Source of the DNA: Anaerofustis stercorihominis DSM 17244
GTDB lineage: Bacteria > Bacillota > Clostridia > Eubacteriales > Anaerofustaceae
Assembly: GCF_000154825.1 (NCBI RefSeq)
Contig: NZ_DS560019.1
Coordinates: 186,001-250,000 of the forward strand
Length of the DNA: 64,000 nt
Direction of reading: 5' to 3'
Shown: piece after piece, positions 9,597 to 58,463 of the stretch
Layout of the letters: each line of letters begins with the position of its first letter
Numbering within the stretch: position 1 is the stretch's first letter
Translations under genes and position numbers: made by a program
Notes under the pieces: generated by a model
Told to the model about the DNA's origin: nothing
What the model saw: only the letters and a program-made list of their open reading frames with translations
Databases searched by the model: none

Positions 9597-9674
9597 ATGA
9601 TAAAATAAAATAATGACAAAAAAATAAAATGATGATAAACTATACTTAATTAAATTTTAAGCGAGGTAGATAAA

Positions 9675-13189: not shown

Positions 13190-14863
13190 CTAAAATAATC
13201 CTGAGATCTTTCCGTTTTCATCGACGTCGATTTTAAATGCAGCAGGTTCTTTTCCAAGCCCCGGCATTTTCATCACGTCCCCCGCAAGTGCAACTATAAA
13301 TCCTGCTCCCGCAGAAACGGTCATATCCTTTATCGTTATCCTGAAACCTTCCGGTTTTCCGAGTTTGGTTGGGTCATCGGAAAGCGAATACTGTGTTTTA
13401 GCTATACAGATAGGCATATTCCCAAAACCTAATTTCTCGAAATTATCCATTTCTTTCTTAGCTTTTGGAAGGAAGTCAACGCCGTCTGCTCCGTATACTT
13501 TTTTTGCTATCGCTTCGATTTTTTCTTTAATGCTTAAATCAGTGTCATAAGAGAATTTAAAGTTATTTTCTTCATCACAAAGCCTTATAACTTCTTTTGC
13601 AAGGTCTTCCCCGCCTTTGCCGCCTTTTTCCCATACTTCGCTTAAGACTACGTTTACGCCGAGTTCCTTACACTTATTTTCAATAAGACTGATTTCGGCT
13701 TCAGTATCATTGACGAATTTATTTATAGCAACAACACAAGGAAGTCCGAACACATTTTTTATGTTGTCAACGTGTTTAAGCAAGTTAGGAAGTCCCTTTT
13801 CAAGAGCTTCCAAGTTCTCTTCACCAAGTTCGTTCTTACTTACTCCCCCGTTGTATTTAAGAGCTTTTACCGTCGCAACTATGATTACCGCATCAGGTTT
13901 AAGGTCTGCAAGTCTGCATTTTATATCGAGGAATTTTTCCGCCCCGAGGTCTGCCCCGAAACCTGCTTCCGTTACTACATAATCACAGAAATGTCTAGCC
14001 ATTTTCGTTGCGATAACGCTGTTACATCCGTGAGCTATATTCGCAAAAGGTCCTCCGTGAATAAAAGCTGGAGTTCCTTCCAAAGACTGTACCAAATTCG
14101 GTTTCAAAGCGTCTTTAAGAAGTGTTGCCATAGCTCCGTTTGCTTTTAAATCTCTTGCGGTAACGGGATTTCCGTCCATGTTATATGCGGCAACTATATT
14201 ACCGAGCCTTTCTTTCAAATCAGTGATATTGTTGGCAAGACAGAATATAGCCATTACTTCGCTTGCTACGGTTATATCAAAACCATCTTCACGAGGAGTC
14301 CCGTTTACTTTTCCGCCGAGACCGCAGACGATATTCCTAAGCTGTCTGTCGTTCATGTCGATAGCTCTTCTCCAAACTATCCTTCTCGTATCGATATTAA
14401 GTTCGTTACCCTGCTGGATATGATTATCTATCATCGCCGCAAGAAGATTATTAGCGGCAGTAAGGGCATGTAAATCACCGGTAAAGTGGAGATTGATGTC
14501 TTCCATAGGAACGACCTGAGCATATCCGCCGCCGGCAGCTCCGCCTTTTATCCCGAACACAGGTCCGAGAGAAGGTTCTCTAAGCGCCATTATCGTGTTA
14601 TGACCAAGCCTTCTTATTGCGTCTGCAACGCCGATAGTAGTCGTTGTTTTCCCTTCCCCTGCCGGAGTGGGATTGATGGCAGTGGTAAGTATCAGTTTAC
14701 CTTTCTTACCTTCGGTCCTCTTTAAAACATTATAATCCACTTTTGCTTTATATTTTCCGTAAAGTTCTATATCGTCTTCGCTTAAACCTATTCTCTTTGC
14801 TACTTCCCTGATGTCTTCCATCTTTGCTTCCTGAGCAATTTCAATATCACTTTTGTAACCCAT
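13190..14863 (-). CDS. fhs: Formate-tetrahydrofolate ligase
   Basis: ATP-dependent synthesis of 10-formyl-tetrahydrofolate from formate and THF in one-carbon metabolism. At 557 aa it is full length. The ATP loop is [13 protein letters not shown] (about 66-78). Other conserved blocks are [20 protein letters not shown] and the Gly-rich [20 protein letters not shown] near the C-terminus. It lies 15 bp after folT, downstream of a THF riboswitch, so folate uptake and this folate-using enzyme share control. Confidence 0.97.
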
Positions 14864-14878
14864 TTTAAATCCTTCTCC

Positions 14879-15412
14879 TTAAACCTTTATTTTGTTTTTA
14901 GTATTATTATATAGAAAATAAATTATTGCACTGTTGAGAAAAATCATGACTACGGCTTTTATAAACCTTTGGGGTATCATAGCTATCGTAGCGTAACCGT
15001 ACATCTGGATAAGGAACACGGTATTTAAGAGTATCGAACATATAACTTCACACAGTACTACTATGAGTACAATATGTTTTAATTCAAGTTCGATATTTTT
15101 CTTTTTGACCATCATTGCAATAAGTCCGGGAATAAGTCCGTATAAGGCACTGGTAAGGGTAAAACCGAGGTGAAATGCACCTCCGTCCGACTTTATGACA
15201 AATTGGATAAAATCAGACAAAAACCCTATGGCAAAACCATAAACGGGTCCAAGGAGTATCCCCGAAAAAATCGTGGGAACGGTAGTAAACCCGATCCTGA
15301 AATTGGGTGTCACACTGATTTCAAACATCTTCAGTACTATCCCCATTGCAATCAGCAGTCCCGCGAAAACGATTTTTCTCGTACTAACTAAACTAGAGCT
15401 TGCTCTATTCAT
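14879..15412 (-). CDS. folT: Folate-specific ECF transporter S component
   Basis: Substrate-binding membrane subunit of an energy-coupling-factor folate importer; the shared EcfAA'T energising module is encoded elsewhere. The 177-aa protein has about six hydrophobic helices and the FolT-type N-terminal region (KIVFAGLLIAMGIVLK) and PNFRIGFTTVPTIFSGILLGPVYG. TAGGAGG precedes the ATG. First gene of the folT-fhs operon; the riboswitch upstream supports the folate assignment. Confidence 0.92.
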   Translation of the reverse strand: MNRASSSLVSTRKIVFAGLLIAMGIVLKMFEISVTPNFRIGFTTVPTIFSGILLGPVYGFAIGFLSDFIQFVIKSDGGAFHLGFTLTSALYGLIPGLIAMMVKKKNIELELKHIVLIVVLCEVICSILLNTVFLIQMYGYATIAMIPQRFIKAVVMIFLNSAIIYFLYNNTKNKIKV

Positions 15413-15475
15413 ACTTTTTACCTCCTAAGTATTACTAGACAAAGCTCCGCTATTCATGACATATTTAAATGTAAA

Positions 15476-42929: not shown

Positions 42930-45290
42930 TTAACTTTTACTTTTGTCTACCTTTTCGAATTGATCCAATACTGCAATAAATGCTGATATCAAATCATCCG
43001 AAAAAGCCCCGCATTTTCCGTTTATTATCATTTCAGAAGCTTTTGAATGAGAAATAGGATTTCCGTTAGGAGTTCCCATAGTAAGCGCATCATAAACATC
43101 TATTAGCCCGACTACTTGAGCAGACACTGGAATATTATCCCCTTTTAAACCATAAGGGTATCCTTTCCCGTCATATCTTTCATGGTGATACAATGCTATA
43201 TCTCTGCTTGCTATATAATACTCATCTTTCGTTTCTAAAATTTTTGATAAAAATTTAGCACCTTGAATAGTATGTGTCTTCATTATCTCATTTTCTTCAT
43301 AATTTAAAATCGAACCCTTTTTAATTATATTATCCGGGACTGCTATTTTACCCAAATCATGAAGTGCCGCTGCTTCCGTTATTACATCTATTTCTTCTTT
43401 ACTAATATCGTACTTTGAATTGTTTATTTTTACAAGTGCTTTTAATAAAATATTAACATATTTTTTTATTCTGTTTACATGTCCCCCGCTTTTCAAACTT
43501 CTGAATTCAATTAAAGTACTCAAATTGGATAATATCCTTGACTGGCTTTCCTGAAGAGATTTCATCTGTCTGTCTATTTTTTTCTTTTGCTCATCAACTA
43601 AATTGACTAAATGATTACGATATTTAAATAAGTCAATTAAGTTCTTGGCTCTATTCTTAACTTCAAAATTATCAAAAGGCTTTCTCATTATATCCTCAAC
43701 ACCTATTTGATAGATCATATCGTTCATATTTTCAGAAACACCTGCTGAAATAACTATAACAGGTATATCTTTTTCATTGAGCTCATTACGAAGTATAGTT
43801 AAAAATTGAACCCCATCCATTTTAGGCATGACTATATCAAGTAAAATAAGCACTACCTTATTTTTATTCTCTTCCAATACTTTTAAAGCTTCCTCACCGT
43901 CAGCAGCCATTAATATATTATATTCATCCTCAAGGGCTATTTTTAGAATTTCTCTGTTTAATTCTTCATCATCTACAATTAAAATACTTTCTCTTTTTTT
44001 AATTTCTTTTTTTATCTTTTCCCTATTTTCTTCTCTTTTAGGTTCATTGCCGCTATAACAAATCACCTTTTCATTTTTATTTAATTTAGCCTGATACATT
44101 GCAATATCCGCTTTTGAAAATAATGCTATATAATCCTTACCGTCATTGGGATATATACTTATTCCAATACTGACACTTATAGGGAAAGGATCGTTCATTA
44201 ATTTATCTTTTAGTTCGTTTCCTTTTCTTATTATAATGTCGTTATCTGCATTCTTTAGAAAAACAATAAATTCATCCCCGCCTATCCTTCCTATGGTATC
44301 TGTAGAACGAAAAGTATTATCCAGTATTTTCGCAATCAGCGTTATTACGCTGTCACCTTTTTTATGTCCGTAAGAATCATTGATGTTTTTAAAGTCATCT
44401 ACATCTATTACCAATAATCCATGTTTATTTTCTTTATCATTTGAATTCTCAATAAGTTCTTTTATAATAGATTCACTGGCAACTTTATTCAAAATACCTG
44501 TCAGAGGATCGAGGCTTAATTGCTTTTCAAGCTTTATCCTGGCTTGCTTTTCACTTTCTATAACTGAAAACCTGCCAATTATTTTATTTAATTTTTTATT
44601 GTCATCCCTTAAATAAAAGTAACTCATTTTAAGCCAAAAAAATTCGGAATTATTTAATCTGCTTCCTCTATATTCAAAACTTCCTTTATCACTTTTACTT
44701 CTGCCTTCAAAAATATTTTTAAATTTAGTTATATAATCCGGATGAACATGCCTATCGATATTATATTTTATAAAATCAGAAGTAACAGCAGGAATATCTT
44801 TTTCCTGAGCCTCATCGAAAGGGATAGTTATGGTGTCAAAAAAACAATCATATTCAAATTGTACATCTTTAGAAATAGAATCTATCAATTTTGATGTCTC
44901 AATTTTAGATACGAGTCTATTGACAACCTGCTTTTGTTTATTTATATCTACCAAAACAAAAATGATCTTTGGACCATTTTCTTCGTATGCGAGTTTTAGC
45001 CTGACTAAAACCCATTTTTCATTATTACCTTTTAATCTAACTTCAAATTCACTGGAATATTCTTCCTTAAATTTAAGAGCATTAAAAATAGCATCTTTTT
45101 CTTTATTGAATATTTCTTCTCCGCATAATTCAAATATAACATTTTTTATCTCTGTGTTACTTATTGCTTCTTTATTTATAGATACAATATCATAAAAATT
45201 ATCGTTTCCTTCTTCAAATTTTATGGTATGTTCATCTATAACAGCGACTTTTAAAACACCAACAGGCAATAAGCTTAATGCATTCTCCAT
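42930..45290 (-). CDS. c-di-GMP turnover protein: PAS-like, GGDEF, REC, HD-GYP
   Basis: A 786-aa cytoplasmic signalling protein. Domains in order are PAS-like folds (1-250), GGDEF diguanylate cyclase (257-390, LDPLTGILNK and RIGGDEFIVFL intact), REC receiver (433-550, ILIVDDEELNREI and the phospho-Asp in LILLDIVMPKMDG), and HD-GYP phosphodiesterase (597-765, AALHDLGKIAVPD and HHERYDGKGYPYGLKG intact). Both synthesis and breakdown sites look active. The REC domain between them and the adjacent Hpt gene suggest phosphorylation chooses between the two. Confidence 0.93.
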   Translation of the reverse strand: MENALSLLPVGVLKVAVIDEHTIKFEEGNDNFYDIVSINKEAISNTEIKNVIFELCGEEIFNKEKDAIFNALKFKEEYSSEFEVRLKGNNEKWVLVRLKLAYEENGPKIIFVLVDINKQKQVVNRLVSKIETSKLIDSISKDVQFEYDCFFDTITIPFDEAQEKDIPAVTSDFIKYNIDRHVHPDYITKFKNIFEGRSKSDKGSFEYRGSRLNNSEFFWLKMSYFYLRDDNKKLNKIIGRFSVIESEKQARIKLEKQLSLDPLTGILNKVASESIIKELIENSNDKENKHGLLVIDVDDFKNINDSYGHKKGDSVITLIAKILDNTFRSTDTIGRIGGDEFIVFLKNADNDIIIRKGNELKDKLMNDPFPISVSIGISIYPNDGKDYIALFSKADIAMYQAKLNKNEKVICYSGNEPKREENREKIKKEIKKRESILIVDDEELNREILKIALEDEYNILMAADGEEALKVLEENKNKVVLILLDIVMPKMDGVQFLTILRNELNEKDIPVIVISAGVSENMNDMIYQIGVEDIMRKPFDNFEVKNRAKNLIDLFKYRNHLVNLVDEQKKKIDRQMKSLQESQSRILSNLSTLIEFRSLKSGGHVNRIKKYVNILLKALVKINNSKYDISKEEIDVITEAAALHDLGKIAVPDNIIKKGSILNYEENEIMKTHTIQGAKFLSKILETKDEYYIASRDIALYHHERYDGKGYPYGLKGDNIPVSAQVVGLIDVYDALTMGTPNGNPISHSKASEMIINGKCGAFSDDLISAFIAVLDQFEKVDKSKS

Positions 45291-45983: not shown

Positions 45984-48900
45984 TTAAGCTTCGGCTGTTT
46001 CTTCTTCAGCTTCTTCCTTTGCATTTTTATATCCCATTACTAATGTTACTCCGGATATCAATGCAAATACTACCATGAATATAGTCCACTTATCTATAAG
46101 AGCCATTGGTAAACTCATATCTTCCGTTAGTATAAATACGATAAGTGCTATTATTCCGTCAACAGCTGCTAAAATCTTTGTAAATAATCTTCTCTTTTTC
46201 TTTTCTTCCAAATATTCGTCCGCATCGGCGTATTCAGTTTCATAATATTCCTCTGCGTAATATTCTTCCTTTTTCTTTCTGGCAAATATTAGAAGTACTA
46301 ATCCTGATATCAAAGAGAAAATAGTGCATAATAGATTTATCAATGCCCAGCTTGCTCCGCCTTCTGCCAAAGGAACTTTTTCGTCCGGAATATTTACGGT
46401 CCCTCCGTTATCGAGAGGCGTTACGGCGTCATTTATCGTCGTTGCAGGATTATTGGTTGTCGGTGCATTTGCAGCAGGTGCTGCCGGAGCCGCTGCAGGT
46501 GCTCCGCCCCCGTTAACTGTAGTCGTACCTGTCCCGGTTGTTGCGGGAGGTGTCGATTGAGGTGTGGTTGGTCTTGTTGGATTTGTAGGAGTCGGAATTA
46601 CCAGATTATTTTCCTCTTCTTTATCATAAACAAATACTATTATATTATTTTCAGTATCCATTACTATTGACTGTGTATTACTGCTTACCAATTTATAACC
46701 ATTTATATTAACTGCTTTTTCACTTACCTTATCTCCGAAAGCAGCTTTCATGATTTTATCATTATATAATCTATTGTTATTTCTATCTACATAATACACT
46801 CTGTATTCATAGATATTTTTATTATAAACAAAAGTTATTTCATTATTTTCAACATCTATATCTATCTTTTGTTCATCACTGCCTTGGACACTGTAGCCTT
46901 TTATATCTAACGCTTTTTCCACTACTTTATCTTTATACTCGGCGTTACCTTTTTTATCATCAACTAACTTATTTCCGTCAATATCAACATAATGAACGAT
47001 ATAATCATAACTATTCTTTTCATATACAAAGGTTATTTCATTATTTTCGGTATCCATAGTTATACTTTGCTGATCATTTCCCTGTATATGATAACCTTTT
47101 ATATCTATTGCATTTTCGGTAACTGTTTCTCCATACTTTTTATTTTCATATTTGTCTTTAACTAATTTATTTCCTTCAGTATCTACATAATGAACTACAT
47201 ATGGATAATCATTTGCTTTCCATTCTGCGGTTAAAGTAATATCTTCAGCAGGCATATTGAAATGTGTTCCATCGGAATATCTATTATTATACTTATCATA
47301 ATATCCTTGAAGAGTATAACCTTTAACACTTATATTACCACCGTTAACTTCAACATCTGAATTAAAATCATATTTTTTATCTTCAGTGAGCATACCTTCC
47401 AAAATGCCACCATTAGGAACATTAGCATCATAATTTACAGAATATTGATTAACTTTCCATTTTGCTAAAAGAGTAACATTATTATCAGGCATTGTAAACT
47501 TAGCGTTTACATCAATATCAGTTATATTTTCAAGTCCTTTTACCGTCCAGCCATCAAAAGTATATCCTTTAACGTCGATACCCTTGGAATCCGAAACTTC
47601 TACACTGGTATTATATTTATATAAAGTTGCCTCAGGTAATTTATCTTCATTGTTAACTACAGCACCTTCATAAGGAGGATTAGCATCGTAACTTACCGCA
47701 TGCTCGTTAGCCTTATATGCAAATGTTATTACCTTTGCATTTTTATCGCTGCCATCATTTTTTAAGATTTCATTAATAACTATAGGATAATCGGAATTAT
47801 TTTCTACTAATGTATATCCCTTTATAACCCCCTTGGCTTTAGCATTTACATTAAGAGTACTGCCATAGTCTGCTGTCAAGGTCTCTTTATTTTTTATCTC
47901 TTTTTTAGTATCAACATCAATGTACTTTATAACATATTTTGATTTGATCTTTTTAAATTTCGCATATACTACTATATCCTTATTTACCCATTTAAGTTCA
48001 TGATCTTGAAGTTTTATATCGTCTTTGTAATACCATCCATCAAATTCGTAACCTTCTTCATAGGGATTAACTTCAGGTTTATCCACTCCGGTATTATCTT
48101 CTACTTTCGGATAGGATTTAACGACATGATCATATCCTTCAAATATATTATCTTTTATAGAATTATCATATTCATTAATAAAGACAACTTTATGATAAGT
48201 GGTAGTATCATATGCGACACCATCTACATGCCATCCGTCAGTACCGTCATATTTAATTACATACCATCTTATAGATATCTTGCCGTTATCTATATCTTTT
48301 TCACTGTATCCGGCTGCTATCAATGCTTTTTTCTGAGCTTCCATACTAGGGATTTGTACCAGATTACCATCCCTGTCAACACCGTTTTCACTGGTATTAT
48401 CGTATATAGACTTACTGATGGATTTATTTATTTTTCCCGCTCCTACGTATTTATAATTTGAAGGTTTATCGGGAGAAGCACTGCCCGGTACATTAGCGGT
48501 ATTCTTTAAAACATAGAAGTTTGCAGCACCGCTTGATTGCCAAATAGCATATAACTTTGAGTTTTCTTTTAGCTCATAATTATCACCAGGCTTATAAGAC
48601 ACGCCGCTTCCGTTAGATTTTGTATTCCACTCTTTAAATTCGAATCCAACTTTAGCTTTGGGAACTTCATTTATTATATTTACGTTACCCTCTTTTTGAG
48701 TTATTTTAGTAAACAATCCATTTCCATTATTTGTCCAATATTCTAGAGTATAATCCTTTTTTTCTTCATCAGGTTTGTTTACGTCCTCAGTATTTTTACC
48801 ATCCTTTATCCAGCCTGCATATAAATCAAGGACTCCATTATTCGTTTCTATCACCCATGGATTGATAACTGCTTCGGCTCTGTTTTCATAATATCTGCCG

Positions 48901-49481
48901 TCCCCATTGGGAATTCCTTCTGATTTTTCATAATCTCTTCCGTCTTTACTGTTTACGAACCATCCTGCAAATGTATAACCGCTTCGTACAGCCTTATGAT
49001 TGTTATAAACATCTACATTAAATGGAGTTGTATAACTCTCAACAACATGATTACTAGGCTTATATGTCACTTCATTTGCAACTTTATCATTTTCATAATG
49101 ATATGCAATTTTTATCTTATAAGGTTCTTTTTCCCATACCGGTCTGAATACAGTATCAACATCCGGAACGACAAAATCAGAACCTGCTTTTACTACTTTT
49201 TCAGTCCAGTTCGTTGACGAATTACTGTACTTCCAGCCTGCAAACTTATAATTAAGTCTTTTAAGCGTACCCGTTCTTATACTTATGGTTTCTCCGACAT
49301 TATACTTATGAGTTTCAGGGACCTCTCCGGTAACTCCTTCGTCCCATCCTTTTTCATAAGAAATACTTACGGTTTTATCATTTTTACTTTCTATCTCTTT
49401 AGCAAAAACATTTGCAGGGATAGTACCTAATATCATTAATGAAATAAGCAATAAGCTTAATATTCTCTTTAACCTTTTCAT
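45984..49481 (-). CDS. Large repeat-rich surface protein, MucBP/List-Bact type
   Basis: Adhesin-like protein of 1165 aa. ATG 49481 follows GGAGG. Signal peptide (1-28, ending NVFAK). InlB/Listeria-Bacteroides-type repeats (about 40-320 and 590-755, with YTFAGWFVNSK, YTFDGWTVKG forms) alternate with MucBP-like units; three close MucBP-like copies lie at about 757-957 (VHYVD-GNKLV-IKGY-ENNEITFVY). A Pro/Thr/Ala linker (about 960-1035) precedes IPDEKVPLAEGGASWALINL and three membrane helices with a charged cytoplasmic loop. There is no LPXTG; the C-terminus looks like a polytopic anchor found in Clostridia surface proteins. Confidence 0.88.
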   Translation of the reverse strand: MKRLKRILSLLLISLMILGTIPANVFAKEIESKNDKTVSISYEKGWDEGVTGEVPETHKYNVGETISIRTGTLKRLNYKFAGWKYSNSSTNWTEKVVKAGSDFVVPDVDTVFRPVWEKEPYKIKIAYHYENDKVANEVTYKPSNHVVESYTTPFNVDVYNNHKAVRSGYTFAGWFVNSKDGRDYEKSEGIPNGDGRYYENRAEAVINPWVIETNNGVLDLYAGWIKDGKNTEDVNKPDEEKKDYTLEYWTNNGNGLFTKITQKEGNVNIINEVPKAKVGFEFKEWNTKSNGSGVSYKPGDNYELKENSKLYAIWQSSGAANFYVLKNTANVPGSASPDKPSNYKYVGAGKINKSISKSIYDNTSENGVDRDGNLVQIPSMEAQKKALIAAGYSEKDIDNGKISIRWYVIKYDGTDGWHVDGVAYDTTTYHKVVFINEYDNSIKDNIFEGYDHVVKSYPKVEDNTGVDKPEVNPYEEGYEFDGWYYKDDIKLQDHELKWVNKDIVVYAKFKKIKSKYVIKYIDVDTKKEIKNKETLTADYGSTLNVNAKAKGVIKGYTLVENNSDYPIVINEILKNDGSDKNAKVITFAYKANEHAVSYDANPPYEGAVVNNEDKLPEATLYKYNTSVEVSDSKGIDVKGYTFDGWTVKGLENITDIDVNAKFTMPDNNVTLLAKWKVNQYSVNYDANVPNGGILEGMLTEDKKYDFNSDVEVNGGNISVKGYTLQGYYDKYNNRYSDGTHFNMPAEDITLTAEWKANDYPYVVHYVDTEGNKLVKDKYENKKYGETVTENAIDIKGYHIQGNDQQSITMDTENNEITFVYEKNSYDYIVHYVDIDGNKLVDDKKGNAEYKDKVVEKALDIKGYSVQGSDEQKIDIDVENNEITFVYNKNIYEYRVYYVDRNNNRLYNDKIMKAAFGDKVSEKAVNINGYKLVSSNTQSIVMDTENNIIVFVYDKEEENNLVIPTPTNPTRPTTPQSTPPATTGTGTTTVNGGGAPAAAPAAPAANAPTTNNPATTINDAVTPLDNGGTVNIPDEKVPLAEGGASWALINLLCTIFSLISGLVLLIFARKKKEEYYAEEYYETEYADADEYLEEKKKRRLFTKILAAVDGIIALIVFILTEDMSLPMALIDKWTIFMVVFALISGVTLVMGYKNAKEEAEEETAEA

Positions 49482-49635
49482 AGTATCCTCCACAATCTAT
49501 ATAAATACACATTAGTAATAGATTTAATCTTTATTTTATAGTTATAATATCATCGCCTAGTTACATATGAGTAACATATCAAATTTAAAATCAAATAATT
49601 AAATTATTTTATTACTGGTAATTTTTTGCAAATAA

Positions 49636-49659: not shown

Positions 49660-50488
49660 AATTAACAGAATAAAATCCCAAAATCTTTATTTTATAATCC
49701 TCTTTTATCTTGTTTATAGTATTAATGATTTTTTCCTTTTGTTTGAAATCTCCGTTTATTTCCAAATAAAAATTATATGTTCCCATATCCAGTTTTGTTG
49801 GTCTTGACATTATTGAAACAAGATTTATTTTATTTAAAGAAAATTCTTTTAGTATATCAAATAGTATTCCGGGACGGTCATTATCAGGCATTATATATAA
49901 GGGAACTTTTATATCTTTATTATTAGCTATATCTACTTTAAGCGCCCCCTCCCTTACAACTATAAAACGTGTATGATTATTAATCGCATCGGTTACATTT
50001 TTAATCTTAAACGGTGCCGATGAATGTTCAAGCATATGACCGGGGATTATTGCGGCTTCACCGATATTTCCTTCTTTTATTTTATCAAAAGATTCCATAT
50101 TGCTCTCAGTCGTTATTATTTGTACATCATTCAAACTATCAATAAATTTTCTGCATTGTCCGTTTGTCTTGAACTGAACATACAATTTTTTTATATCTTC
50201 GATATTTTTAGTATTACTGATCAAAGAGAACTGTACGGGAATACTTATTTCATTTTCTATATAAACATTCATTTCAAGGAGTAAATCCAAAGTCCTTTGA
50301 ACATAGCCATCCAAAGTATTTTCAACGGGTATAATCCCGACTTCGCATTCTGATCCCACACTATGAAAAGCATCGTCGATGGTTGAATAATAAATTTGTT
50401 CTAAATCATTATTAAATTTTTTTATATATTGTATTGATGCACTGTCACTGAAAGTGCCCCTAGGTCCTAAAACCGCAATTTTTTCCAC
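49658..50488 (-). CDS. pheA: Prephenate dehydratase
   Basis: Converts prephenate to phenylpyruvate in phenylalanine synthesis. The 276-aa protein has VLGPRGTFSDSASIQYI at the start, VGIIPVENTLDGYVQRTLD and NHTRFIVV (catalytic domain, 1-180). A C-terminal ACT domain (about 195-270, PGILFDILKEFSLNKINLVS; ESRP-like MSRPTKLDMGTYNFYLEI) gives Phe feedback control. Translation starts with GTG after ATGGAG. It stands alone, with no other aromatic gene close by except the distant EPSP-synthase-like pseudoenzyme. Confidence 0.94.
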   Translation of the reverse strand: MEKIAVLGPRGTFSDSASIQYIKKFNNDLEQIYYSTIDDAFHSVGSECEVGIIPVENTLDGYVQRTLDLLLEMNVYIENEISIPVQFSLISNTKNIEDIKKLYVQFKTNGQCRKFIDSLNDVQIITTESNMESFDKIKEGNIGEAAIIPGHMLEHSSAPFKIKNVTDAINNHTRFIVVREGALKVDIANNKDIKVPLYIMPDNDRPGILFDILKEFSLNKINLVSIMSRPTKLDMGTYNFYLEINGDFKQKEKIINTINKIKEDYKIKILGFYSVN

Positions 50489-50891
50489 TATGTAATCTCC
50501 ATATTATAATTTTATATTTTATTATAACATAAAACTCAATATCTAAATAAAAATATCTCAAAGACCTAAAAATTAAAGGGATTTTTATAATATATATACT
50601 TTATTTTATAATTAATCTATAAACCTCCTGATTTCTCCTTCTTATGATAAATAATATTTAAATTACAAATAATAATAAAACTTTATAAATAATATTAATG
50701 GGGTAACTATATAGTATTATTGATTATATTTTTTAGAAATATAATCAAAATTTATTTACTTATCTTGAGTAAAAATATACAATTATATAAAAGAAAAAAA
50801 CAGCTTTAAATTCAAATAGGATAGCAGAAAACAGTTGATATTTATAGGCTGATTCAAAGAAATCGCAATACTATACATTAATTGTTCAGCA
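50489..50891. other. Gene-free AT-rich region
   Basis: About 400 bp between pheA and the SARP-like gene. No open frame with a ribosome site was found. GGAGAAATCAGGAGG on the minus strand (near 50630) looks like tandem ribosome sites, but no start or frame follows. Confidence 0.5.
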
Positions 50892-50920
50892 TTGTTTTTC
50901 CACCTGATTTAGTGTATAAT
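50892..50920 (+). promoter_or_regulatory. Promoter of the SARP-like regulator
   Basis: TTGTTT (50892-50897) and TATAAT (50915-50920) are separated by 17 bp, 18 bp before the ATG, giving a very short leader. Confidence 0.6.
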
Positions 50921-50938
50921 TATTCTGGGAGATAAGTT

Positions 50939-52132
50939 ATGGATAATAATTTAAAAATTAAAATGCTGGGAGAATTTTCAATTTCATATAATGATAATAC
51001 ATTGAACGACTCTACGAGCAGGTTTAAAAAAGTATGGTCATTACTTGAGTATCTTATTACTTTTAGAGAAAAAGAAATATCTCAAAATGAATTGATCGAA
51101 GTCCTGTGGGAAGATGAAAATCTTTCTTCACCGACAAACAATTTGAAAACTTTGGTACACAGAGCAAGAAATGTTCTGGACAGCTTAGGTTATACCGAAG
51201 GGAAAAATATGATTAAATTTTCTAGAGGATCATATCATTGGAATAATGATCTTGATTTTGAAATTGATATTGAGATATTTAAAAACTTGATCGATAAAGC
51301 TAAATTCTCCGATAACAAAGATGAAAAATTAGAATATTATTTTAAGGCAATTGATGTTTATAAAGGAACTTTTTTACCTAAAAGTGCATATGAGTCATGG
51401 GCTGTCCCGGTAGCTACATATTATCAAAATATGTATATTACCATGATAAATGACATGATAAATATATTAAAAGAAAAAAATGACTATCAGTCTATTTCAG
51501 AAATTTGTGAAAAAGCGGTTATAATAGATCCATATGATGAAGATCTGCATTATCATTTGATTTATGCATTAGCAAAAAATGAAAAAAATAAAGAAGCATT
51601 GGAACATTACGAATATGTAGTAGACTTATTTTATAAACAGTTCGGACTAAATCTTTCAGACAAACTTACGAGTTTATATAAAACAATATTGGATACCACT
51701 AAAAATGTTGAGTTAGACCTAAATATCATCAAGGAAAATTTAAAGGAAAAGACTTATTCCAAGGGTGCTTTTTACTGCGAGCTTGGTTTATTCAAAGAGT
51801 TATGTCAGATAGAAGCAAGGTCTATTGCACGAACCGGAGTATCCATTAATTTGGCATTATTTACAATAATAGATATAAACGGAGCTCCTATCAAACAGCA
51901 TATCATGAATAAATACATGGATAAACTTCATTCTTCAATACAAGAATCTCTTAGGAGAGGAGACGTATTTACCAGATACAGTTTATGTCAATATATAGTA
52001 ATGCTTCCGTCAACAAGCTTTGAAAATGCGGATATGGTATCGGGAAGGATTGCCAGAGATTTTAAAAAGAAAATTGCAAAACCGGATTTGGATATCAAAT
52101 TTACGATTTCCCCCCTGGAACCTAACAACTAA
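50939..52132 (+). CDS. SARP-like regulator with BTAD and degenerate GGDEF tail
   Basis: The 397-aa protein has an N-terminal OmpR-type winged helix (about 5-95, FKKVWSLLEYLITFREKEIS; NNLKTLVHRARNVLDSLGY) and a BTAD helical domain (110-245, TFLPKSAYESWAVPVATYYQ; AVIIDPYDEDLHYHLIYALA), as in SARP activators. The C-terminal part (about 275-390) resembles a GGDEF domain in which the motif reads YSLCQ before YIVML, so it cannot make c-di-GMP. It converges with the pilus operon and is a candidate regulator of it. GGGAGA precedes the ATG. Confidence 0.83.
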   Translation: MDNNLKIKMLGEFSISYNDNTLNDSTSRFKKVWSLLEYLITFREKEISQNELIEVLWEDENLSSPTNNLKTLVHRARNVLDSLGYTEGKNMIKFSRGSYHWNNDLDFEIDIEIFKNLIDKAKFSDNKDEKLEYYFKAIDVYKGTFLPKSAYESWAVPVATYYQNMYITMINDMINILKEKNDYQSISEICEKAVIIDPYDEDLHYHLIYALAKNEKNKEALEHYEYVVDLFYKQFGLNLSDKLTSLYKTILDTTKNVELDLNIIKENLKEKTYSKGAFYCELGLFKELCQIEARSIARTGVSINLALFTIIDINGAPIKQHIMNKYMDKLHSSIQESLRRGDVFTRYSLCQYIVMLPSTSFENADMVSGRIARDFKKKIAKPDLDIKFTISPLEPNN

Positions 52133-52137
52133 TAAAC

Positions 52138-52171
52138 AAAAAACCTTATTCTAAAATGAATAAGGTTTTTT
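52138..52171. terminator. Bidirectional terminator between SARP-like gene and pilus operon
   Basis: AAAAAACCTTATTC and GAATAAGGTTTTTT form a 14-bp stem around TAAAAT. Confidence 0.9.
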
Positions 52172-52173
52172 GT

Positions 52174-53235
52174 TTATAATTCTATTCGCTTTGATAAGTT
52201 ATCGGGATTAAGTGCATAACGTATAGCTACGTCTTTTGATATAACTCCTTTTTTATAAAGCTCCAAAAGACTGTTGTCCATGCTTATCATACCTTCGGAC
52301 GCACTGGAAACTATCGTTGCATTCAGCTGATGAGTCTTACTTTCTCTTATCATATTTCTTATTGCATTATTTGCATACATTATTTCAAAAACGGGAACCA
52401 GTCCTCCGTCTACGGTCGGAACAAGCTGCTGAGAAACGATTGCCTGAAGTAGCATTGCTAGCTGAACTCTGATTTGTGGCTGCTGATTTGCGGGAAAAAC
52501 ATCTATTATCCTATCAACCGTATTGCTGGCACCCAAAGTATGAAGAGTGGATATAACAAGGTGACCGGTCTCTGCGGCAGTCATCGCCGTACTTATAGTC
52601 TCATAATCCCTCATTTCTCCAACCAATATAACATCAGGAGCCTGCCTTAAAGAAGCTCTTAAAGCAGATACATAATCCATTGTATCGAATTCGATTTCCC
52701 TTTGGGAAATTATTGACTTATCATTTCTATGAAGATATTCTATTGGTTCTTCAAGCGTTATTATATGAGAATTTCTCGAATGGTTTATCCTGTCTATCAT
52801 ACAAGCCAGAGTAGTGGATTTACCGCCTCCTGCAGGCCCTGTAACGAGGATAAGCCCTTTTGTCTTGTTTACTACGTCCATTACATTTTCCCCGATACCA
52901 AGCTTCTTGTAATCAGGTATACCAAATGGAACTATACGAATGACCGCGGCAAAAGAACCTCTTTGTCTGTAAACGCTGACTCTGAAACGAGAAAGTCCCC
53001 TGATAGTAACGGAAAAATCATCATCCCCCGTTTCAATATACTTATCGATATTTCTATCCGCAATATCAAAGATTTCTCTTATCATACTCTCTGAAACATC
53101 AGGCATAACTATTTCACTGTCTATTTCTTTTATAACTCCGTTGACTTTATATGAAAGTCCTCTTCCTGCAATGATAAATACATCAGAAGCATTATCATCT
53201 ACGGCTCTTTTAAGAAGTTCATTTAAACTAATCAC
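52174..53235 (-). CDS. pilT: Type IV pilus ATPase, PilT class
   Basis: Hexameric motor ATPase of 353 aa that powers pilin disassembly, or assembly in single-motor systems. Motifs are Walker A VTGPAGGGKSTTLA, Asp box ITLEEPIEY, Walker B DVILVGEMRDYETI, His box HLVISTLHT and the PilT-typical ANNAIRNMIRESKTHQL. The GTG start follows GGGAGGAG and overlaps the upstream pilin-like gene by 8 bp. It is the last gene of the operon, and no PilB/GspE partner is in the window. Confidence 0.92.
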   Translation of the reverse strand: MISLNELLKRAVDDNASDVFIIAGRGLSYKVNGVIKEIDSEIVMPDVSESMIREIFDIADRNIDKYIETGDDDFSVTIRGLSRFRVSVYRQRGSFAAVIRIVPFGIPDYKKLGIGENVMDVVNKTKGLILVTGPAGGGKSTTLACMIDRINHSRNSHIITLEEPIEYLHRNDKSIISQREIEFDTMDYVSALRASLRQAPDVILVGEMRDYETISTAMTAAETGHLVISTLHTLGASNTVDRIIDVFPANQQPQIRVQLAMLLQAIVSQQLVPTVDGGLVPVFEIMYANNAIRNMIRESKTHQLNATIVSSASEGMISMDNSLLELYKKGVISKDVAIRYALNPDNLSKRIEL

Positions 53236-53668
53236 CTAATTCTCCTCCCCAAACGTCAAGTTTATTATTGTAATCTTCACTTGCTTCATTGACTTCTGCC
53301 CATTTAACAATCTTCAAATCATTTCCGCTGCGTTTAAGCTCCACAACCAACTTTTTATTTTCATCGATTTTAACACTATATCCGATATAGCTGATTCCAT
53401 TTATATTCTTTTCATAATCCGCAAAGGAAGCAATGCTTTTACCGTTAGCTATATTATTTTCTATTTTATTTTTGATTTCTGTTGCTTTATAATCGGCTTC
53501 ATAATATGCTTTTGTTTCATTTGAAACTTTTAAAGCCAAGTTCTTTTCATTTAAAGCAGTTTTATATGCAAGTAAAGAGAAGACCACAAGACACAGAAGA
53601 GCAAATATCATAATCAAGGTACTGCTTCCGATATTAATCCCATATTCATTGCTGTTACTTTTCTTCAT
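53228..53668 (-). CDS. Small membrane-anchored pilin-like protein, 146 aa
   Basis: It begins MKKSNSNEYGINIGSSTLIM, with one N-terminal hydrophobic helix (about 15-36) and a soluble C-terminal part rich in K, N and E, with YEADYKATEIKNKIENNIA. This is the layout of a minor pilin, but no clear prepilin peptidase motif (G then FTLIE) is seen. ATG 53668 lies 1 bp after the preceding stop and is preferred over 53683 because a GGGGG run sits 8 bp upstream. It overlaps pilT. Confidence 0.75.
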   Translation of the reverse strand: MKKSNSNEYGINIGSSTLIMIFALLCLVVFSLLAYKTALNEKNLALKVSNETKAYYEADYKATEIKNKIENNIANGKSIASFADYEKNINGISYIGYSVKIDENKKLVVELKRSGNDLKIVKWAEVNEASEDYNNKLDVWGGELGD

Positions 53669-53669
53669 A

Positions 53670-54050
53670 TTATTTACCCCCATTTCCTACTTTTAAAGAA
53701 AATAAGGATTTACTCATATCATTTTCTCCGCTCATATTTACATAAACATTTGCTTCTTCTTCGTTTCCTACAATATATAAATCCAAGTCACCCTTTACGA
53801 CAACAGTATCATCATCAATTTTTCCGCCAAGTTCTTCCGCAACTTTACTTAAATCTCCGTTATAAGCCTTATAGCATTCAGCTCCGTCCTGTGCAAGAAC
53901 ACATGCATTGTTTAGGTTATCACTGTAATCAGACATTGTCTTTGCGGAGGCAAAAACCTTAAGACAAATACTTGAGCATATAGAAAAAAAGAATATTATC
54001 AAAATAAGTTCCATAAGAAACAGTACGGATTTAGACCTCTTATTTTCCAT
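53670..54050 (-). CDS. Small membrane-anchored pilin-like protein, 126 aa
   Basis: It begins MENKRSKSVLFLMELILIIF with an N-terminal helix (about 8-32) that has a Glu at the place used by the conserved Glu+5 in pilins (LMELI). The outer part (35-126) has NNACVLAQDGAECYKAYNGD and ends VGNGGK. GGAGG precedes the ATG, which overlaps the upstream gene by 11 bp. No exact family is recognised; pilin-like by position and architecture. Confidence 0.72.
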   Translation of the reverse strand: MENKRSKSVLFLMELILIIFFFSICSSICLKVFASAKTMSDYSDNLNNACVLAQDGAECYKAYNGDLSKVAEELGGKIDDDTVVVKGDLDLYIVGNEEEANVYVNMSGENDMSKSLFSLKVGNGGK

Positions 54051-54543
54051 GGTTGGTACCTCCGTATTCGGATTTCAAGGAGATATAAATATCCTTTTTA
54101 TCTCCCTTATTATCTATGCAATATATTTTCAATAGATTGTTTTTTAATTTTTTAAATTCTATACTTTTGATCGGCACTATATCCTGACCGCTGCTTAATC
54201 CCAATTTTTTACCTTCTTCTGCAGTCAGCTCCTTAACGTATCCATCATAATAATAAATAATAGTATTAAATTCTTTTCCATCAATTTTATTTTTAATATA
54301 TAATGCATTTCTACCGTTAAAATCTTTTATATCAATACTATCTTCCTTATCATTATACTTTACTTTGGAAGATATATAATTAAGACAGGTCCTGCTTTCA
54401 TATCTGCTGGAAAGTTTAGAAGAAATAGAGCTGTAAGATTTAACACCGCTGGTCAACACCAAAAGAATGCTTACTAAAAATAAGCAAAACATAATAAGTG
54501 CCATAGCAGTTTGAATTGTATGAGAATTATTATTATTTTTCAT
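54040..54543 (-). CDS. DUF4860-like pilin-associated protein
   Basis: The 167-aa protein has a short polar start (MKNNNNSHTIQTAM), one hydrophobic helix (about 13-34) and an exported beta-rich domain with YNDKEDSIDIKDFNGRNALY and FNTIIYYYDGYVKELTAEEG. This resembles DUF4860 proteins found beside pilC/pilT in Clostridia. Start overlaps nothing; it ends inside the next gene. It is probably a minor pilin or pilus-tip protein. Confidence 0.72.
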   Translation of the reverse strand: MKNNNNSHTIQTAMALIMFCLFLVSILLVLTSGVKSYSSISSKLSSRYESRTCLNYISSKVKYNDKEDSIDIKDFNGRNALYIKNKIDGKEFNTIIYYYDGYVKELTAEEGKKLGLSSGQDIVPIKSIEFKKLKNNLLKIYCIDNKGDKKDIYISLKSEYGGTNHGK

Positions 54544-54548
54544 ACTAC

Positions 54549-54878
54549 TTACCTTTCTATTATTGTCACATCAGGAAAAATATTTGAAGCAAATATCTGA
54601 TAGTTCACTTTATATTTGTCTTCATTGATATGTACTCCGTAGTTTTTAGCCAAATAATCAAAATCTTTAGGATATTTACCTTCTATAGCATAACAGCTGA
54701 CTATCGCTTTATTGATACTGTCTTTTGCTATTTTCATTTCTTCATCTTTACTCTTACTCCCAAGAGAATTTATCCCGGAAATGATAAATATAAAAATGAA
54801 TAAAAATAAAATTATTCCAAACAAATTGGACTTTATAAGAGAAAATATCCCATTTTCTTTATAAATACTCTTTTTCAT
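54549..54878 (-). CDS. Small pilin-like protein with GspG-type helix
   Basis: The 109-aa protein has one N-terminal hydrophobic helix (about 18-40) after MKKSIYKENGIFSLIKSNLF. The following segment AKDSINKAIVSCYAIEGKYP (about 52-71) recalls the start of the globular domain in major pilins/pseudopilins, where AIVxCYAxEG-YP is usual. It may be the major subunit, although the cleavage motif is not canonical. It lies directly after pilC. Confidence 0.72.
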   Translation of the reverse strand: MKKSIYKENGIFSLIKSNLFGIILFLFIFIFIISGINSLGSKSKDEEMKIAKDSINKAIVSCYAIEGKYPKDFDYLAKNYGVHINEDKYKVNYQIFASNIFPDVTIIER

Positions 54879-54882
54879 ATCC

Positions 54883-55914
54883 CTATCCTATAAGCGAAAT
54901 TATATTTGCAAGAGGTATCATCACCGATAATAATATAGCTCCGGTTATCACAGCCAAAACAATTACAAGACTTGGTTCCACTTTACTTATCAAACTGTTT
55001 ATATGCTCTTTCGCTTCCTCTTCGCTTCTGTCGGCAATCTGTTTCATTACCTTATCTACGCTACCTGTCTTTACACCTACACTTAAAAATCTTGCATCTA
55101 TTTCAGAAAGAAGTTTTACTTCGTTAACAGCATCTGAAAAGCTCATGCCTTCTGACATTCTTCCTTTTAGAGACTTAACCTTTTCTCCCATGTCTATATC
55201 ATTAGTAGTCTCCATTGATAAATCAAGAGCCTCATCTATTTCCAACCCGCTTCCGAGAGCCATTGCCATTACGGATGAAAATCTTGACTTAACGATTTCT
55301 CCGTATAGATTACTTTTTCTTAACTTACTAATAAGTATAGTTTTTCCTTTTTCACTTTTTAAAAGCCAAATAAGTAAAATTATTATAACGGCAACAATGA
55401 TTATGAAAGGAAGTGCATATTGATTTAAAAACTTTCCTATATTGAGCATTGCAAGTGAAAATCCTGTCAATGTACTGCCCATTTGCTCATATACTTCACT
55501 GAATATCGGCATTACCTTAGTTATAAGAACCAATATTACCGCAAGCATCATAACAGCCAGAATAGAAGGGTAGAAAACAGCGTTTTTAATACTGTTATTG
55601 AGTCTGTCCATTCTGTCATAATATTCGTATAGGGACTTTAGAGTATCTTCCAAATGCCCTGTTGTCTCCCCTGCTTTTATCATCTTCGTCATATAGTGAG
55701 GAAAAACTTTTGAATTATCGATTGCAGTATGTAAATCTTTTCCTTCAAGCAAATCTTTTAAAAGAGAATTTAATAGTTCCTTACTCTCCTTATTGCTCTC
55801 CCCTTTGGATAACATACCTATGGATTCATCTAAAGGTACACCAGCCTTAACAAGTAAGTAAAGCTGCTCCAAAAAAGATGAGATATATCTGTCCGTTACT
55901 AATTTTTTATTCAT
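54883..55914 (-). CDS. pilC: Type II secretion F / PilC inner-membrane platform protein
   Basis: Platform protein of pilus and type II secretion systems, 343 aa. It has two repeated cytoplasmic helical domains (about 10-130: FLEQLYLLVKAGVPLDESIG, MIKAGETTGHLEDTL; and 215-310: SRFSSVMAMALGSGLEIDEA, GVKTGSVDKVM) and membrane helices near 115-140, 165-190 and 315-340. ATG 55914 is chosen since AAAGGAG is too close to the ATG at 55920. It lies 12 bp after the transglutaminase gene. Confidence 0.92.
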   Translation of the reverse strand: MNKKLVTDRYISSFLEQLYLLVKAGVPLDESIGMLSKGESNKESKELLNSLLKDLLEGKDLHTAIDNSKVFPHYMTKMIKAGETTGHLEDTLKSLYEYYDRMDRLNNSIKNAVFYPSILAVMMLAVILVLITKVMPIFSEVYEQMGSTLTGFSLAMLNIGKFLNQYALPFIIIVAVIIILLIWLLKSEKGKTILISKLRKSNLYGEIVKSRFSSVMAMALGSGLEIDEALDLSMETTNDIDMGEKVKSLKGRMSEGMSFSDAVNEVKLLSEIDARFLSVGVKTGSVDKVMKQIADRSEEEAKEHINSLISKVEPSLVIVLAVITGAILLSVMIPLANIISLIG

Positions 55915-55926
55915 ATTCATTCTCCT

Positions 55927-56904
55927 TTAATATACGTACTTTTCTTGATATTTTGTTCCGTCCCCTATATATTCCTGAAGCTCATCTTCATCTTTATAAG
56001 AAGAAGAAAAAGTCGGGTCCATCAGGACATAATCTTTACCGTCAAATTTAATTACCTTATCGATTTCTCCGCTTTCTTTGGAATATACATTTACCCATGC
56101 GTGATATACTTCTCCGGAGTATCCTATTATAAGCTTAGTCGGTATATCCCGGCTTCTGAGCATTGCCGTCATGACAACAGCATAGTCAAAACAAATACCT
56201 TTACCGCTTTCGAGAACACTATCTATATTTGGTATATATCCGCTGGTTTCGCCGTTCAAAACTTTTGCGGCGAGTTCATTATCATAAGATATTTTATCAG
56301 TTACATAATTATATATGGTTTCAATAATTTCAAGCTGAGTCTTATCATCTTTTGTTATATCACTTGCAACTTTTATGGTTTCATCATTTTCATCAAACTT
56401 TACATATGCATTGGGAAGAAGAAACGGCATGAATTTATCTTTTATTTCAACATCCAAATCAGTTGAATAAACTGTGGAGTATTGATTTCCCGATATATTT
56501 TTATATACTCCTACATTATAAGTCCCGCTGCCATGAGGAAATGAAATAGTTTCAAAGTTTCCGTCACCTTCCAAATCATAATTACAGCTTTCACCGTTTG
56601 GTGAATTTACCAAAATTTTTAGTCTCTTATCGGTTTTGCCTTTGTATTTGACCATTACATATCCGTCTTTTATATTGGAAGCATCTATTTCGGCTTCATC
56701 ATTTCCGTAAACTTTTTTACCGTCGGCACTGGGTTTATGGGATATATAAAAAGGAGTTTTATTATTATCAACGGTAGCTGTCTTTGCCTCGGCTCCGCCT
56801 GAATTATTTCCTTCATCAGAAGAACATGAACACATAAAAAAAACAAATAAAATACATATCATTATAGATAAAAATGATTTTATTTTGTTACTCTCAAGTG
56901 ACAT
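55927..56904 (-). CDS. Transglutaminase-like lipoprotein
   Basis: The 325-aa exported protein starts at ATG 56904 after AAAAGGAG. A signal peptide of about 25 residues ends in a cysteine-rich FMCSCS segment, a probable lipobox. The transglutaminase core (about 205-310) has Cys in ESGKGICFDYAVVMTAMLRS, His in YHAWVNVY and Asp in VLMDPTF, an intact triad. It heads the pilus-like operon. It might cross-link or cleave surface proteins or pilus subunits; this is inference. Confidence 0.87.
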   Translation of the reverse strand: MSLESNKIKSFLSIMICILFVFFMCSCSSDEGNNSGGAEAKTATVDNNKTPFYISHKPSADGKKVYGNDEAEIDASNIKDGYVMVKYKGKTDKRLKILVNSPNGESCNYDLEGDGNFETISFPHGSGTYNVGVYKNISGNQYSTVYSTDLDVEIKDKFMPFLLPNAYVKFDENDETIKVASDITKDDKTQLEIIETIYNYVTDKISYDNELAAKVLNGETSGYIPNIDSVLESGKGICFDYAVVMTAMLRSRDIPTKLIIGYSGEVYHAWVNVYSKESGEIDKVIKFDGKDYVLMDPTFSSSYKDEDELQEYIGDGTKYQEKYVY

Positions 56905-56979
56905 AATATTCTCCTTTTTCAAATATTTATTCTATTATATCATTTTATTACAAAAAAAGAAAATGCAGAAAGAAAATAA

Positions 56980-57007
56980 AAAAGATATATCTTCTGATAT
57001 ATCTTTT
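56980..57007 (-). terminator. Terminator of the polysaccharide cluster
   Basis: AAAAGATATATC and GATATATCTTTT form a 12-bp stem around TTCT, overlapping the wzx stop. Confidence 0.75.
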
Positions 57008-58463
57008 ATTTCCTCGATGACAAAACAGATTTTATCTTATTAAGCATATATGTATACGCATCTAGTTTTAATATATGACAACCTACAATATAAATCATAA
57101 TACCTATTATAATCTGTATTATCAATAATAAAATATTTGGGATATTAAGTATTAAGCTTAAAGAATAGACCAATATGGACATTATAACTGCCAAAATCAA
57201 ATAAGGAATGATATCCCTCCATTGTTCTTTTATAGAGTAGTTTATAAGATACTTATTGGGGAAACCGTTGACAATCGTTGCAACCAAAGAAAACAATATT
57301 TCACTCCCAACAATAGCATATACACCAAAAGGAAAACTTAAGCCAATCAAACATAGACCTATCACGCGTTTTATTACTTCCAATTTAAGTGCAACATCAC
57401 TTCTTCCCAGTGCATTTATGGCTTGAAGATTAGCGGAATGCATAGGATAAAATGCGTATGCAATACAAACAAGCTGCATAAAAGGAACTGCATTTAACCA
57501 CTTATCCGTAAATAAAATAAGTATCAGCGGCTTTGATACCGCAACAAGACCGAACATTACGGGAAATATCACAAAACAATTAAGTGACATCGTCCTCCTG
57601 AGCATTTTTTTCATTTCATCTATTTTGTCCTGTTTAGTTGATAAAACAGGAAGCATAACTGCATTTATAGCACCGGTAAGACCGTTCATAAGACTGGAAC
57701 CGAGCATATCCCCTCTGTTATAGTAACCGAGAGTATCGGATTTAAAAGCTTTACCTATAATCAGAGTCCTTACATTGGTATAAATAACACTGACTAAAGA
57801 TGAACAGACAAGCTTCCAGCTGAATGAAAATAACGTTTTTACTCGCTTCAATGAAAATATCAGTTTTGGTCTCCATCTTACACTAAACCAAAGCACTACG
57901 GTCAAAACAAAATTATTAACTATTGTAGAAATAGCAAGCGCCCATATACCGGCTCCCGCATAGGCAAGACCGACCCCAGTTATGCCTGACGCAATACAGC
58001 CGAGTAAACTTGCCTTAAAATTCTTCTTAAATTCCAGATTTCTTGCTAAGATAGCCTGCTGAACAGTATTAAAGGCACCGAAAACCAATATTATGGCTTC
58101 GGCTCTAAGCAAATTTTTAAGTATATCCTGATGATAAAAATCCGCAACGTACGGAGCTACGAAAAATAATATTATGTAGAGGATAAAAGAAGCGGAGATA
58201 CTAAAATAAAAAATCGAAGAGCTGTCAAGTTCATCAATCTCCGCTTTTTGAATCAAAGCTGTTCCGAAACCGCTTTGAACGAATATTGTTGCAATATTAA
58301 TAAAAACAGTAATAATAGCTACTGCCGCAAAATCTTCCGGAAACAATTTCCTTGCAAGCAATATTTGTATGATCAGGTTTATTGCTTGTACACTGATACG
58401 TTCCATAAATTTCCAGATAAGATTGATTATAATATTTCCTGAAGAAATATTTCTTTCAGCCAT
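57006..58463 (-). CDS. Polysaccharide flippase, Wzx/RfbX-like
   Basis: The 485-aa membrane protein of the MOP flippase superfamily has twelve or more helices. It moves lipid-linked repeat units across the membrane for capsule or surface glycan assembly. Typical blocks are FPEDFAAVAIITVFINIATI near the N-terminus and LGYYNRGDMLGSSLMNGLTG in the middle. It is the last gene of the cluster, after the asparagine-synthase-like gene. Confidence 0.9.
   Translation of the reverse strand: MAERNISSGNIIINLIWKFMERISVQAINLIIQILLARKLFPEDFAAVAIITVFINIATIFVQSGFGTALIQKAEIDELDSSSIFYFSISASFILYIILFFVAPYVADFYHQDILKNLLRAEAIILVFGAFNTVQQAILARNLEFKKNFKASLLGCIASGITGVGLAYAGAGIWALAISTIVNNFVLTVVLWFSVRWRPKLIFSLKRVKTLFSFSWKLVCSSLVSVIYTNVRTLIIGKAFKSDTLGYYNRGDMLGSSLMNGLTGAINAVMLPVLSTKQDKIDEMKKMLRRTMSLNCFVIFPVMFGLVAVSKPLILILFTDKWLNAVPFMQLVCIAYAFYPMHSANLQAINALGRSDVALKLEVIKRVIGLCLIGLSFPFGVYAIVGSEILFSLVATIVNGFPNKYLINYSIKEQWRDIIPYLILAVIMSILVYSLSLILNIPNILLLIIQIIIGIMIYIVGCHILKLDAYTYMLNKIKSVLSSRK

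Follow-up and report, generated by a model that had tools for sequence, protein, structure and literature searches.

According to a 2023 review (PMC10191384), no type IV filament system lacks a pilin, a prepilin peptidase, an extension ATPase, or a membrane platform, and these four parts likely make up the minimal machinery. Tip complexes have as their cap a subunit that lacks Glu5 (PMC10191384), and a single motor can work in both directions, as described for MSHA PilT of V. cholerae (PMC9815625) and for CpaF of the Tad system (PMC11300603). In archaea, clade 1 type IV pili have been linked to surface peptidases of the transglutaminase family, the role of which is unknown (PMC4858521).

Here we describe an operon of Anaerofustis stercorihominis DSM 17244 that occupies positions 52174-56904 on the minus strand of a 64,000-nucleotide window, the whole stretch of DNA analysed. 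Its seven genes, in the order TG (a transglutaminase-fold protein), PilC, p1, p2, p3, p4, and PilT (Table 1), are separated by gaps of 4-6 bases, except at three junctions, which overlap. We are highly confident of the anatomy of a minimal machine, in which a PilC platform and PilT as sole motor are combined with four pilin-like proteins and a surface TG. What this machine does is less certain, and we put at roughly 40% the probability that it represents a widespread class of type IV filament system that dispenses with prepilin processing, uses PilT as its only motor, and forms a tethered pseudopilus coupled to the surface TG.

Table 1. Genes and signals at the locus, with positions counted from the first letter of the window.
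Feature	Positions	Strand	Basis and remarks
TG	55927-56904	-	First gene; Transglut_core match, lipobox-like Cys; ATG at 56904 preceded by AAGGAG
PilC (PilC/GspF-type membrane platform)	54883-55920	-	T2SSF 153.8 bits, 2.6e-45, two matched stretches
p1, GspG-like pilin candidate	54549-54878	-	CYxxEGxYPxxxxYL; without Glu5, without cleavage motif
p2, DUF4860 = GspJ/PilW-type minor pseudopilin (predicted)	54040-54543	-	DUF4860 96 bits, 1.3e-27; fold
p3, pilin with invariant Glu5 (LFLME)	53670-54050	-	Val in place of the cleavage Gly, which varies between loci
p4, GspK/ComGG-like tip subunit candidate	53228-53683	-	Invariant Gly before helix without Glu5
PilT	52174-53235	-	TIGR01420 424.9 bits (cut-off 319.1), 2.5e-127
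Bidirectional intrinsic terminator	52132-52177	both	20-pair stem; closes operon and convergent regulator
BTAD/SARP-type regulator with degenerate GGDEF-like end	50939-52132	+	BTAD 1.1e-14; neighbour outside operon

An earlier sequence-only reading had proposed a single operon of a transglutaminase lipoprotein, PilC, four small proteins, and PilT with overlapping starts, and all seven genes are as it claimed. The span that it assigned to the system, 50939-56904, needs trimming: 52174-56904 stands as the operon, and 50939-52132 on the opposite strand belongs to a regulator that we regard as a neighbour rather than a member because it is convergent and lies behind the common terminator, the hairpin being the sole terminator-like site within 50400-57100.

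The operon resembles several described systems in part. Like the Com pilus of monoderms (ComGA-GG, ComC), it is a single operon in which a motor and a platform are encoded together with small pilins and without PilM, PilN, or PilO, and its p4, a candidate tip subunit, has a weak, sub-threshold likeness to ComGG; unlike the Com pilus, it has a PilT-type motor instead of ComGA, lacks ComC and class III signal peptides, and includes TG. With the type II secretion pseudopilus (GspG-J-I-K) it shares the predicted GspJ fold of p2 (Z 8.8-9.8) and a Glu5 in the I-like but not the K-like subunit, whereas GspE and a peptidase are missing, GspL, GspM, GspC, and the secretin are outside the operon, and the hosts are monoderms. 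As in type IVa pili, the platform is of the PilC type and PilT is nested in the type IVa PilT clade, but PilB is absent, no peptidase is detectable in the genome, and the subunits are without the cleavage motif. The archaeal clade 1 pili also have a TG-family surface enzyme at a type IV pilus locus, a likeness that does not imply kinship, and they differ in being archaeal and in having a prepilin peptidase. Because the extension motor, the peptidase, and the cleavage motifs were each tested for and not found, we do not assign the operon to the type IV pili, the Com pili, or the type II secretion systems; within the type IV filament superfamily it is a real and conserved sub-class, apparently not described before, which has the same parts as other type IV filament machines and probably works like a short pseudopilus. 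A search of the literature on DUF4860, FILTED, and PilT-only or peptidase-less systems found no earlier description. Two of the four parts deemed minimal are missing genome-wide here, yet the operon is conserved and selected across Clostridia; if true, a processing-free class powered by PilT only would contradict the view that none of these four parts can be dispensed with. The operon thus offers a small system for two questions, namely the need for pilin cleavage and the ability of PilT to power a machine alone, and DUF4860, to which no function was previously assigned, would gain the role of a GspJ-type minor pseudopilin.

The case for a sole motor comes from family-model searches of the genome (2,284,703 bases in 5 contigs, 99.2% complete), in which the operon PilT was the only T2SSE-family motor above the cut-off and the operon PilC the only T2SSF match. 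The lack of PilB and the position of PilT as single motor, noted earlier for the window, therefore hold for the whole genome, where no T2SSE match above the cut-off represents an extension ATPase (PilB, GspE, or ComGA). This PilT scored 134.7 bits against the ComGA model, for which 300 are needed, and 140.4 bits against the GspE model TIGR02533, for which 630 are needed. A tree of 73 motors placed the operon PilTs in one group inside the PilT clade, apart from PilB and CpaF-type motors, the exception being that of locus L062, which was placed near the base with low support; by this sequence-based placement, the operon PilT falls inside the retraction-PilT clade. The ATPase (Walker) motifs are intact in 91-93 of 95 sequences. 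A family search of the operon genes found none of PilM, PilN, and PilO, which are dispensable in Com pili. In both G169 and G439, the locus is about 40 kb from the gene most closely related to the operon PilT.

The sequence-only reading had likewise seen no prepilin peptidase in the window, and this too extends to the genome, in which neither Peptidase_A24 (PF01478) nor the A24 N-domain (A24_N_bact, PF06750) was matched. The second model was added because the first gives no match in a Lactococcus lactis control; together they detect peptidases in the relatives G010, G202, and G224, and the absence is to be read as that of two families, which a highly divergent or unrelated peptidase would escape. 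A pilB/pilD set encoded elsewhere, which that reading had named as evidence against a distinct machine, was looked for genome-wide and not found. A24 is undetectable in eight of the 29 DUF4860 genomes (G000, G008, G047, G048, G049, G234, G309, and G324), and in seven of these eight, all except G309, the operon PilT is the only motor, that of the fragmented draft G047 being split across contigs. G309 has PilC and p1-p4, no motor in its genome, and no TG beside them, which suggests that the motor or TG may be dispensable.

The four small proteins have their counterparts in the pseudopilus subunits G, J, I, and K, an assignment that is well supported for p2 and p3 and less so for p1 and p4. None of p1-p4 in this operon has a class III signal peptide (Gly or Ala at -1, Glu at +5). 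When the motif [GA]xxxx[DE] followed by a helix was sought across loci, it was found in p1 at 0 of 104, in p2 at 1 of 104 (L062), in p3 at 31 of 103, and in p4 at 0 of 101; the earlier statement that all four lack a clear prepilin motif is thus borne out for p1, p2 (103 of 104), and p4, and p3, with Val at -1 in this operon, has a partial motif across loci. Canonical prepilin motifs, which that reading had also named as evidence against it, did not emerge. The leader segments are positively charged, with a median net charge of +1 to +3. The GspG-like segment noticed earlier lies in p1, which is conserved in 104 loci and whose profile matches the TcpA and CFA/III pilins weakly (E about 1). An HMM search identified p2 as DUF4860, and structure prediction gave it a pilin-type fold (AF2 model, pLDDT 91.5): type IV pilins fill the first ten places among its PDB alignments (Z 7.6-10.0, the next row scoring 4.7), with ComZ TTHA1219, XcpW, EpsJ, GspJ, and PilB of S. 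sanguinis among them. With Foldseek by itself, neither p2 nor p4 reached an E below 0.001, and the fold call for p2 comes from a second structural alignment; when profiles of p2 and p4 were compared with PDB sequences, only chance matches came up. As modelled, p2 has a GspJ-type minor-pseudopilin fold. The Glu of p3 is present in 103 of 103 loci and in register with the Glu5 of solved type IV pilins in a profile comparison (E 0.005). Position -1, by contrast, varies: 27 loci have Gly there, another 27 Ser, and 14 Arg, with other residues elsewhere. In p4, one Gly is kept in 101 of 101 loci and is followed by a hydrophobic helix with no Glu at +5. The AF2 model starts the helix at this Gly, the best fold match is the S. 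sanguinis minor pilin PilA (Z 6.0, amid unrelated rows at 5.5), and the match to the ComGG model is weak (20.2 bits, cut-off 40), so that we call p4 pilin-like, not proven. The presence of Glu5 in p3 and its absence from p4 fit the rule that a subunit without Glu5 caps the tip (PMC10191384).

These features could also be read as those of an ordinary extending pilus, in which PilT would be bidirectional, the peptidase unrecognised, and p1 a real if thin filament. Motors that serve both directions are known (PMC9815625), p1 has its CYxxEGxYP segment and its weak likeness to TcpA and CFA/III, p3 retains Gly or Ala at -1 in 31 of 103 loci, and the invariant Gly of p4, at which the predicted helix begins, could mean that p4 is still cut. 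Against this stand the cleavage motif, which is never found in p1 and is found in p2 only in L062, the lack of Glu5 in p1, and the eight genomes without a detectable A24 or A24 N-domain, and we consider an extending pilus unlikely, though worth keeping in mind.

An A24 gene is present in the other 21 of the 29 DUF4860 genomes, outside the operon in all but G202, and processing in trans is possible there. The operon could be imagined as a hybrid served by the PilB and prepilin peptidase of a second pilus system in the same cell; peptidases common to several systems are known (PMC6668835), and many carriers (e.g., G022, G025, G029, G031-G036, and G169) also have PilB-like motors and A24. The seven genomes, this one included, that have the operon PilT only and no detectable peptidase speak against such borrowing, as do the cleavage motifs, which are missing even where a peptidase is encoded, and we regard it as improbable. 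The single operon-internal peptidase among 109 loci scanned with a single-sequence profile is that of L062 (genome G202), where all seven families recur, arranged as PilT-PilC-p1-p2-p3-p4 followed by a PilD-type (A24) peptidase and then TG. Its p2 starts with GKGYTLVELLL (motif GYTLVE) and scores above the cut-off for DUF4860 and below that for N_methyl; its p3, which starts with EKGFTLVEVMI (motif GFTLVE), exceeds the Pfam N_methyl cut-off; the p3 of L061, with SAFALAEI, is intermediate. Since L062 has both, the motifs and the peptidase were probably lost together; most simply, the ancestral operon encoded a peptidase of its own along with pilins that were cleaved, and later lineages lost the two, the direction of change being inferred. 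TG as a replacement for the peptidase was considered and is disfavoured, L062 carrying both.

The enzyme with an intact Cys-His-Asp triad that had been placed first in the operon is indeed the 5'-most gene. It matches Pfam Transglut_core at 68.4 bits (cut-off 23; 8e-19), and its triad, Cys244-His274-Asp302 when numbered from a TTG at 56922, is invariant in 17 aligned sequences; the motifs GICFDY, YHAW, and DPT are present in 105-107 of 107 sequences, and a lipobox-like motif was detected in 58 of 107. Its matches among solved structures are 3isr, a putative cysteine protease by annotation, and 6g49, annotated as a protein-glutamine gamma-glutamyltransferase, and transglutaminase-fold proteins in bacteria are often cysteine proteases. 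TG is predicted to be a surface lipoprotein of the transglutaminase/cysteine-protease fold and an enzyme, either a protease or a transamidase.

A possible substrate was sought among large surface proteins, which would be sorted or secreted by a TG-centred system through FILTED or similar C-terminal tails. A large neighbour (45984-49493) ends in a FILTED domain (NF052597), as does a neighbour in G048, and in the order survey eight of nine FILTED genomes carry DUF4860 (chance about 3e-4, hypergeometric, ignoring kinship). FILTED occurs without DUF4860 in G014, however, and in the phylum sample it exceeds the cut-off only in this genome, against 12 others with DUF4860; a nearby protein with a TPL-plus-membrane tail was found at only 6 of 80 named loci. 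FILTED-tail proteins were rejected as the substrate, the association seen in the order being lost in the phylum sample and in the flanks of the 80 named loci, and a sorting system of this kind appears very doubtful.

Conservation was assessed at three depths. Among 50 genomes of the same order, 17 carry DUF4860, and each of the other 16 loci keeps the seven-gene order, TG being encoded on the opposite strand in L030 and PilT being cut by a contig end in L028; among 398 genomes of the phylum sample, 13 carry DUF4860, mostly with the same operon. A TG-alignment scan of 84,980 species, at one genome per species, found at least 593 relatives, and the exact order TG-PilC-p1-p2-p3-p4-PilT is present in 68 of 80 named Clostridia loci, these being the best 80 of those relatives, several of the remaining loci being interrupted by contig ends. 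Because the order is kept in 16 of 16 comparison loci and 68 of 80 named loci, the operon is not a product of chance. The sequence-only reading is supported in its proposal of a separate, minimal machine in which PilT and PilC are joined by four non-canonical pilins and a TG that is conserved, PilB and a detectable PilD being absent from this genome; its idea of protein export or cross-linking stays a conjecture. Named carriers include Acetobacterium, Anaerotignum, Pseudobutyrivibrio, Enterocloster, Dorea, Butyricicoccus, Anaerotruncus, and Intestinimonas. The carriers are gut and anaerobic bacteria, many of them from animal guts. Sequence comparison with G008, of the same genus, gives dN/dS values of 0.012 for PilT and 0.046-0.173 for the other six genes, which indicates that all seven are under purifying selection. 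That the operon is a type IV pilus locus in decay, as the missing PilB, PilD, and motifs and the motorless G309 might suggest, is hardly credible and already disfavoured given dN/dS of 0.01-0.17 in all seven genes, the order kept in 68 of 80 loci, and intact catalytic motifs.

Under the preferred reading of a tethered pseudopilus, the ancestral machine would have had cleaved pilins and a dedicated peptidase, and most of its descendants would have lost both. The proteins p1-p4 would then stay uncleaved, held in the membrane by their positively charged leaders, and because these leaders are retained they could not build a long filament and would instead form a short membrane-tethered pseudopilus. 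In such a structure, p4 would serve as the cap, p3 would dock on p4 through Glu5, and p2 and p1 would follow, while PilT under PilC would move the stub in short strokes; we rate a PilT/PilC-driven pseudopilus of this type at even odds. At the outer face, the stub may present, activate, or feed the TG lipoprotein, which in turn might trim or cross-link envelope proteins. Joint action of TG and pseudopilus on envelope proteins, proposed on the basis of operon membership, is tentative, and the role of TG and the need for motion are the weakest step of the mechanism, since in G309 neither TG nor a motor accompanies PilC and p1-p4.

The convergent regulator has relatives next to the operon at 11 of 29 loci and at another 25 named ones. 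The gene adjoining p4 in G169 is CheY-like.

In p1, the first of the four small pilin-like proteins, the extracellular Cys of the CYxxEG motif is near-invariant and, in 89 of 104 p1 sequences, is the sole Cys past residue 40; it is a possible site of attachment or cross-linking.

Apart from p1, the proteins listed below are neighbours of the operon in the window or in comparison genomes. The BTAD/SARP-type regulator with its degenerate GGDEF-like C-terminus is a recurrent neighbour, present in the window and in 35 other operon flanks, and it possibly regulates the operon. The FILTED domain (NF052597) of the window's surface protein has three more, weaker matches in the same genome. About 10 further members of the R-D/Q-N-x-x-W-Q-G small-protein family were found besides the four listed, and the family has no Pfam match.

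Features in and near the pilus-like operon and its relatives in comparison genomes (L, locus; G, genome)
Feature	Location	Strand	Description
p1	window 54549-54878		small pilin-like protein
BTAD/SARP-type regulator	window 50939-52132	+	C-terminus GGDEF-like, degenerate (RYSxxQYxxMLP)
GGDEF + response-regulator protein	window 42930-45290	-	near operon; end c-di-GMP phosphodiesterase-like
Surface protein	window 45984-49493	-	1169 aa; Listeria-Bacteroides and MucBP repeats; C-terminal FILTED
Asp-Ala repeat protein and sortase-like gene	L056 (G362) 13624-15450 and 9639-10271		near operon; long protein, LPQTG at end
Small-protein family	L096:9588-10013, L100:13887-14333, L112:9385-9804, L143:14560-15012		adjoins operon; ~140-150 aa; C-terminal R-D/Q-N-x-x-W-Q-G
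CheY-like response regulator	L054:9257-9619 (G169)		directly after p4

The operon of G309 (L064) retains PilC and p1-p4 without PilT or an adjacent transglutaminase-fold lipoprotein, and neither another T2SSE-family motor nor an A24-family prepilin peptidase was found in this genome, which is listed as 100% complete. In G169, the CheY-like response regulator occupies the usual place of PilT, a relative of which lies approximately 40 kb from the operon.
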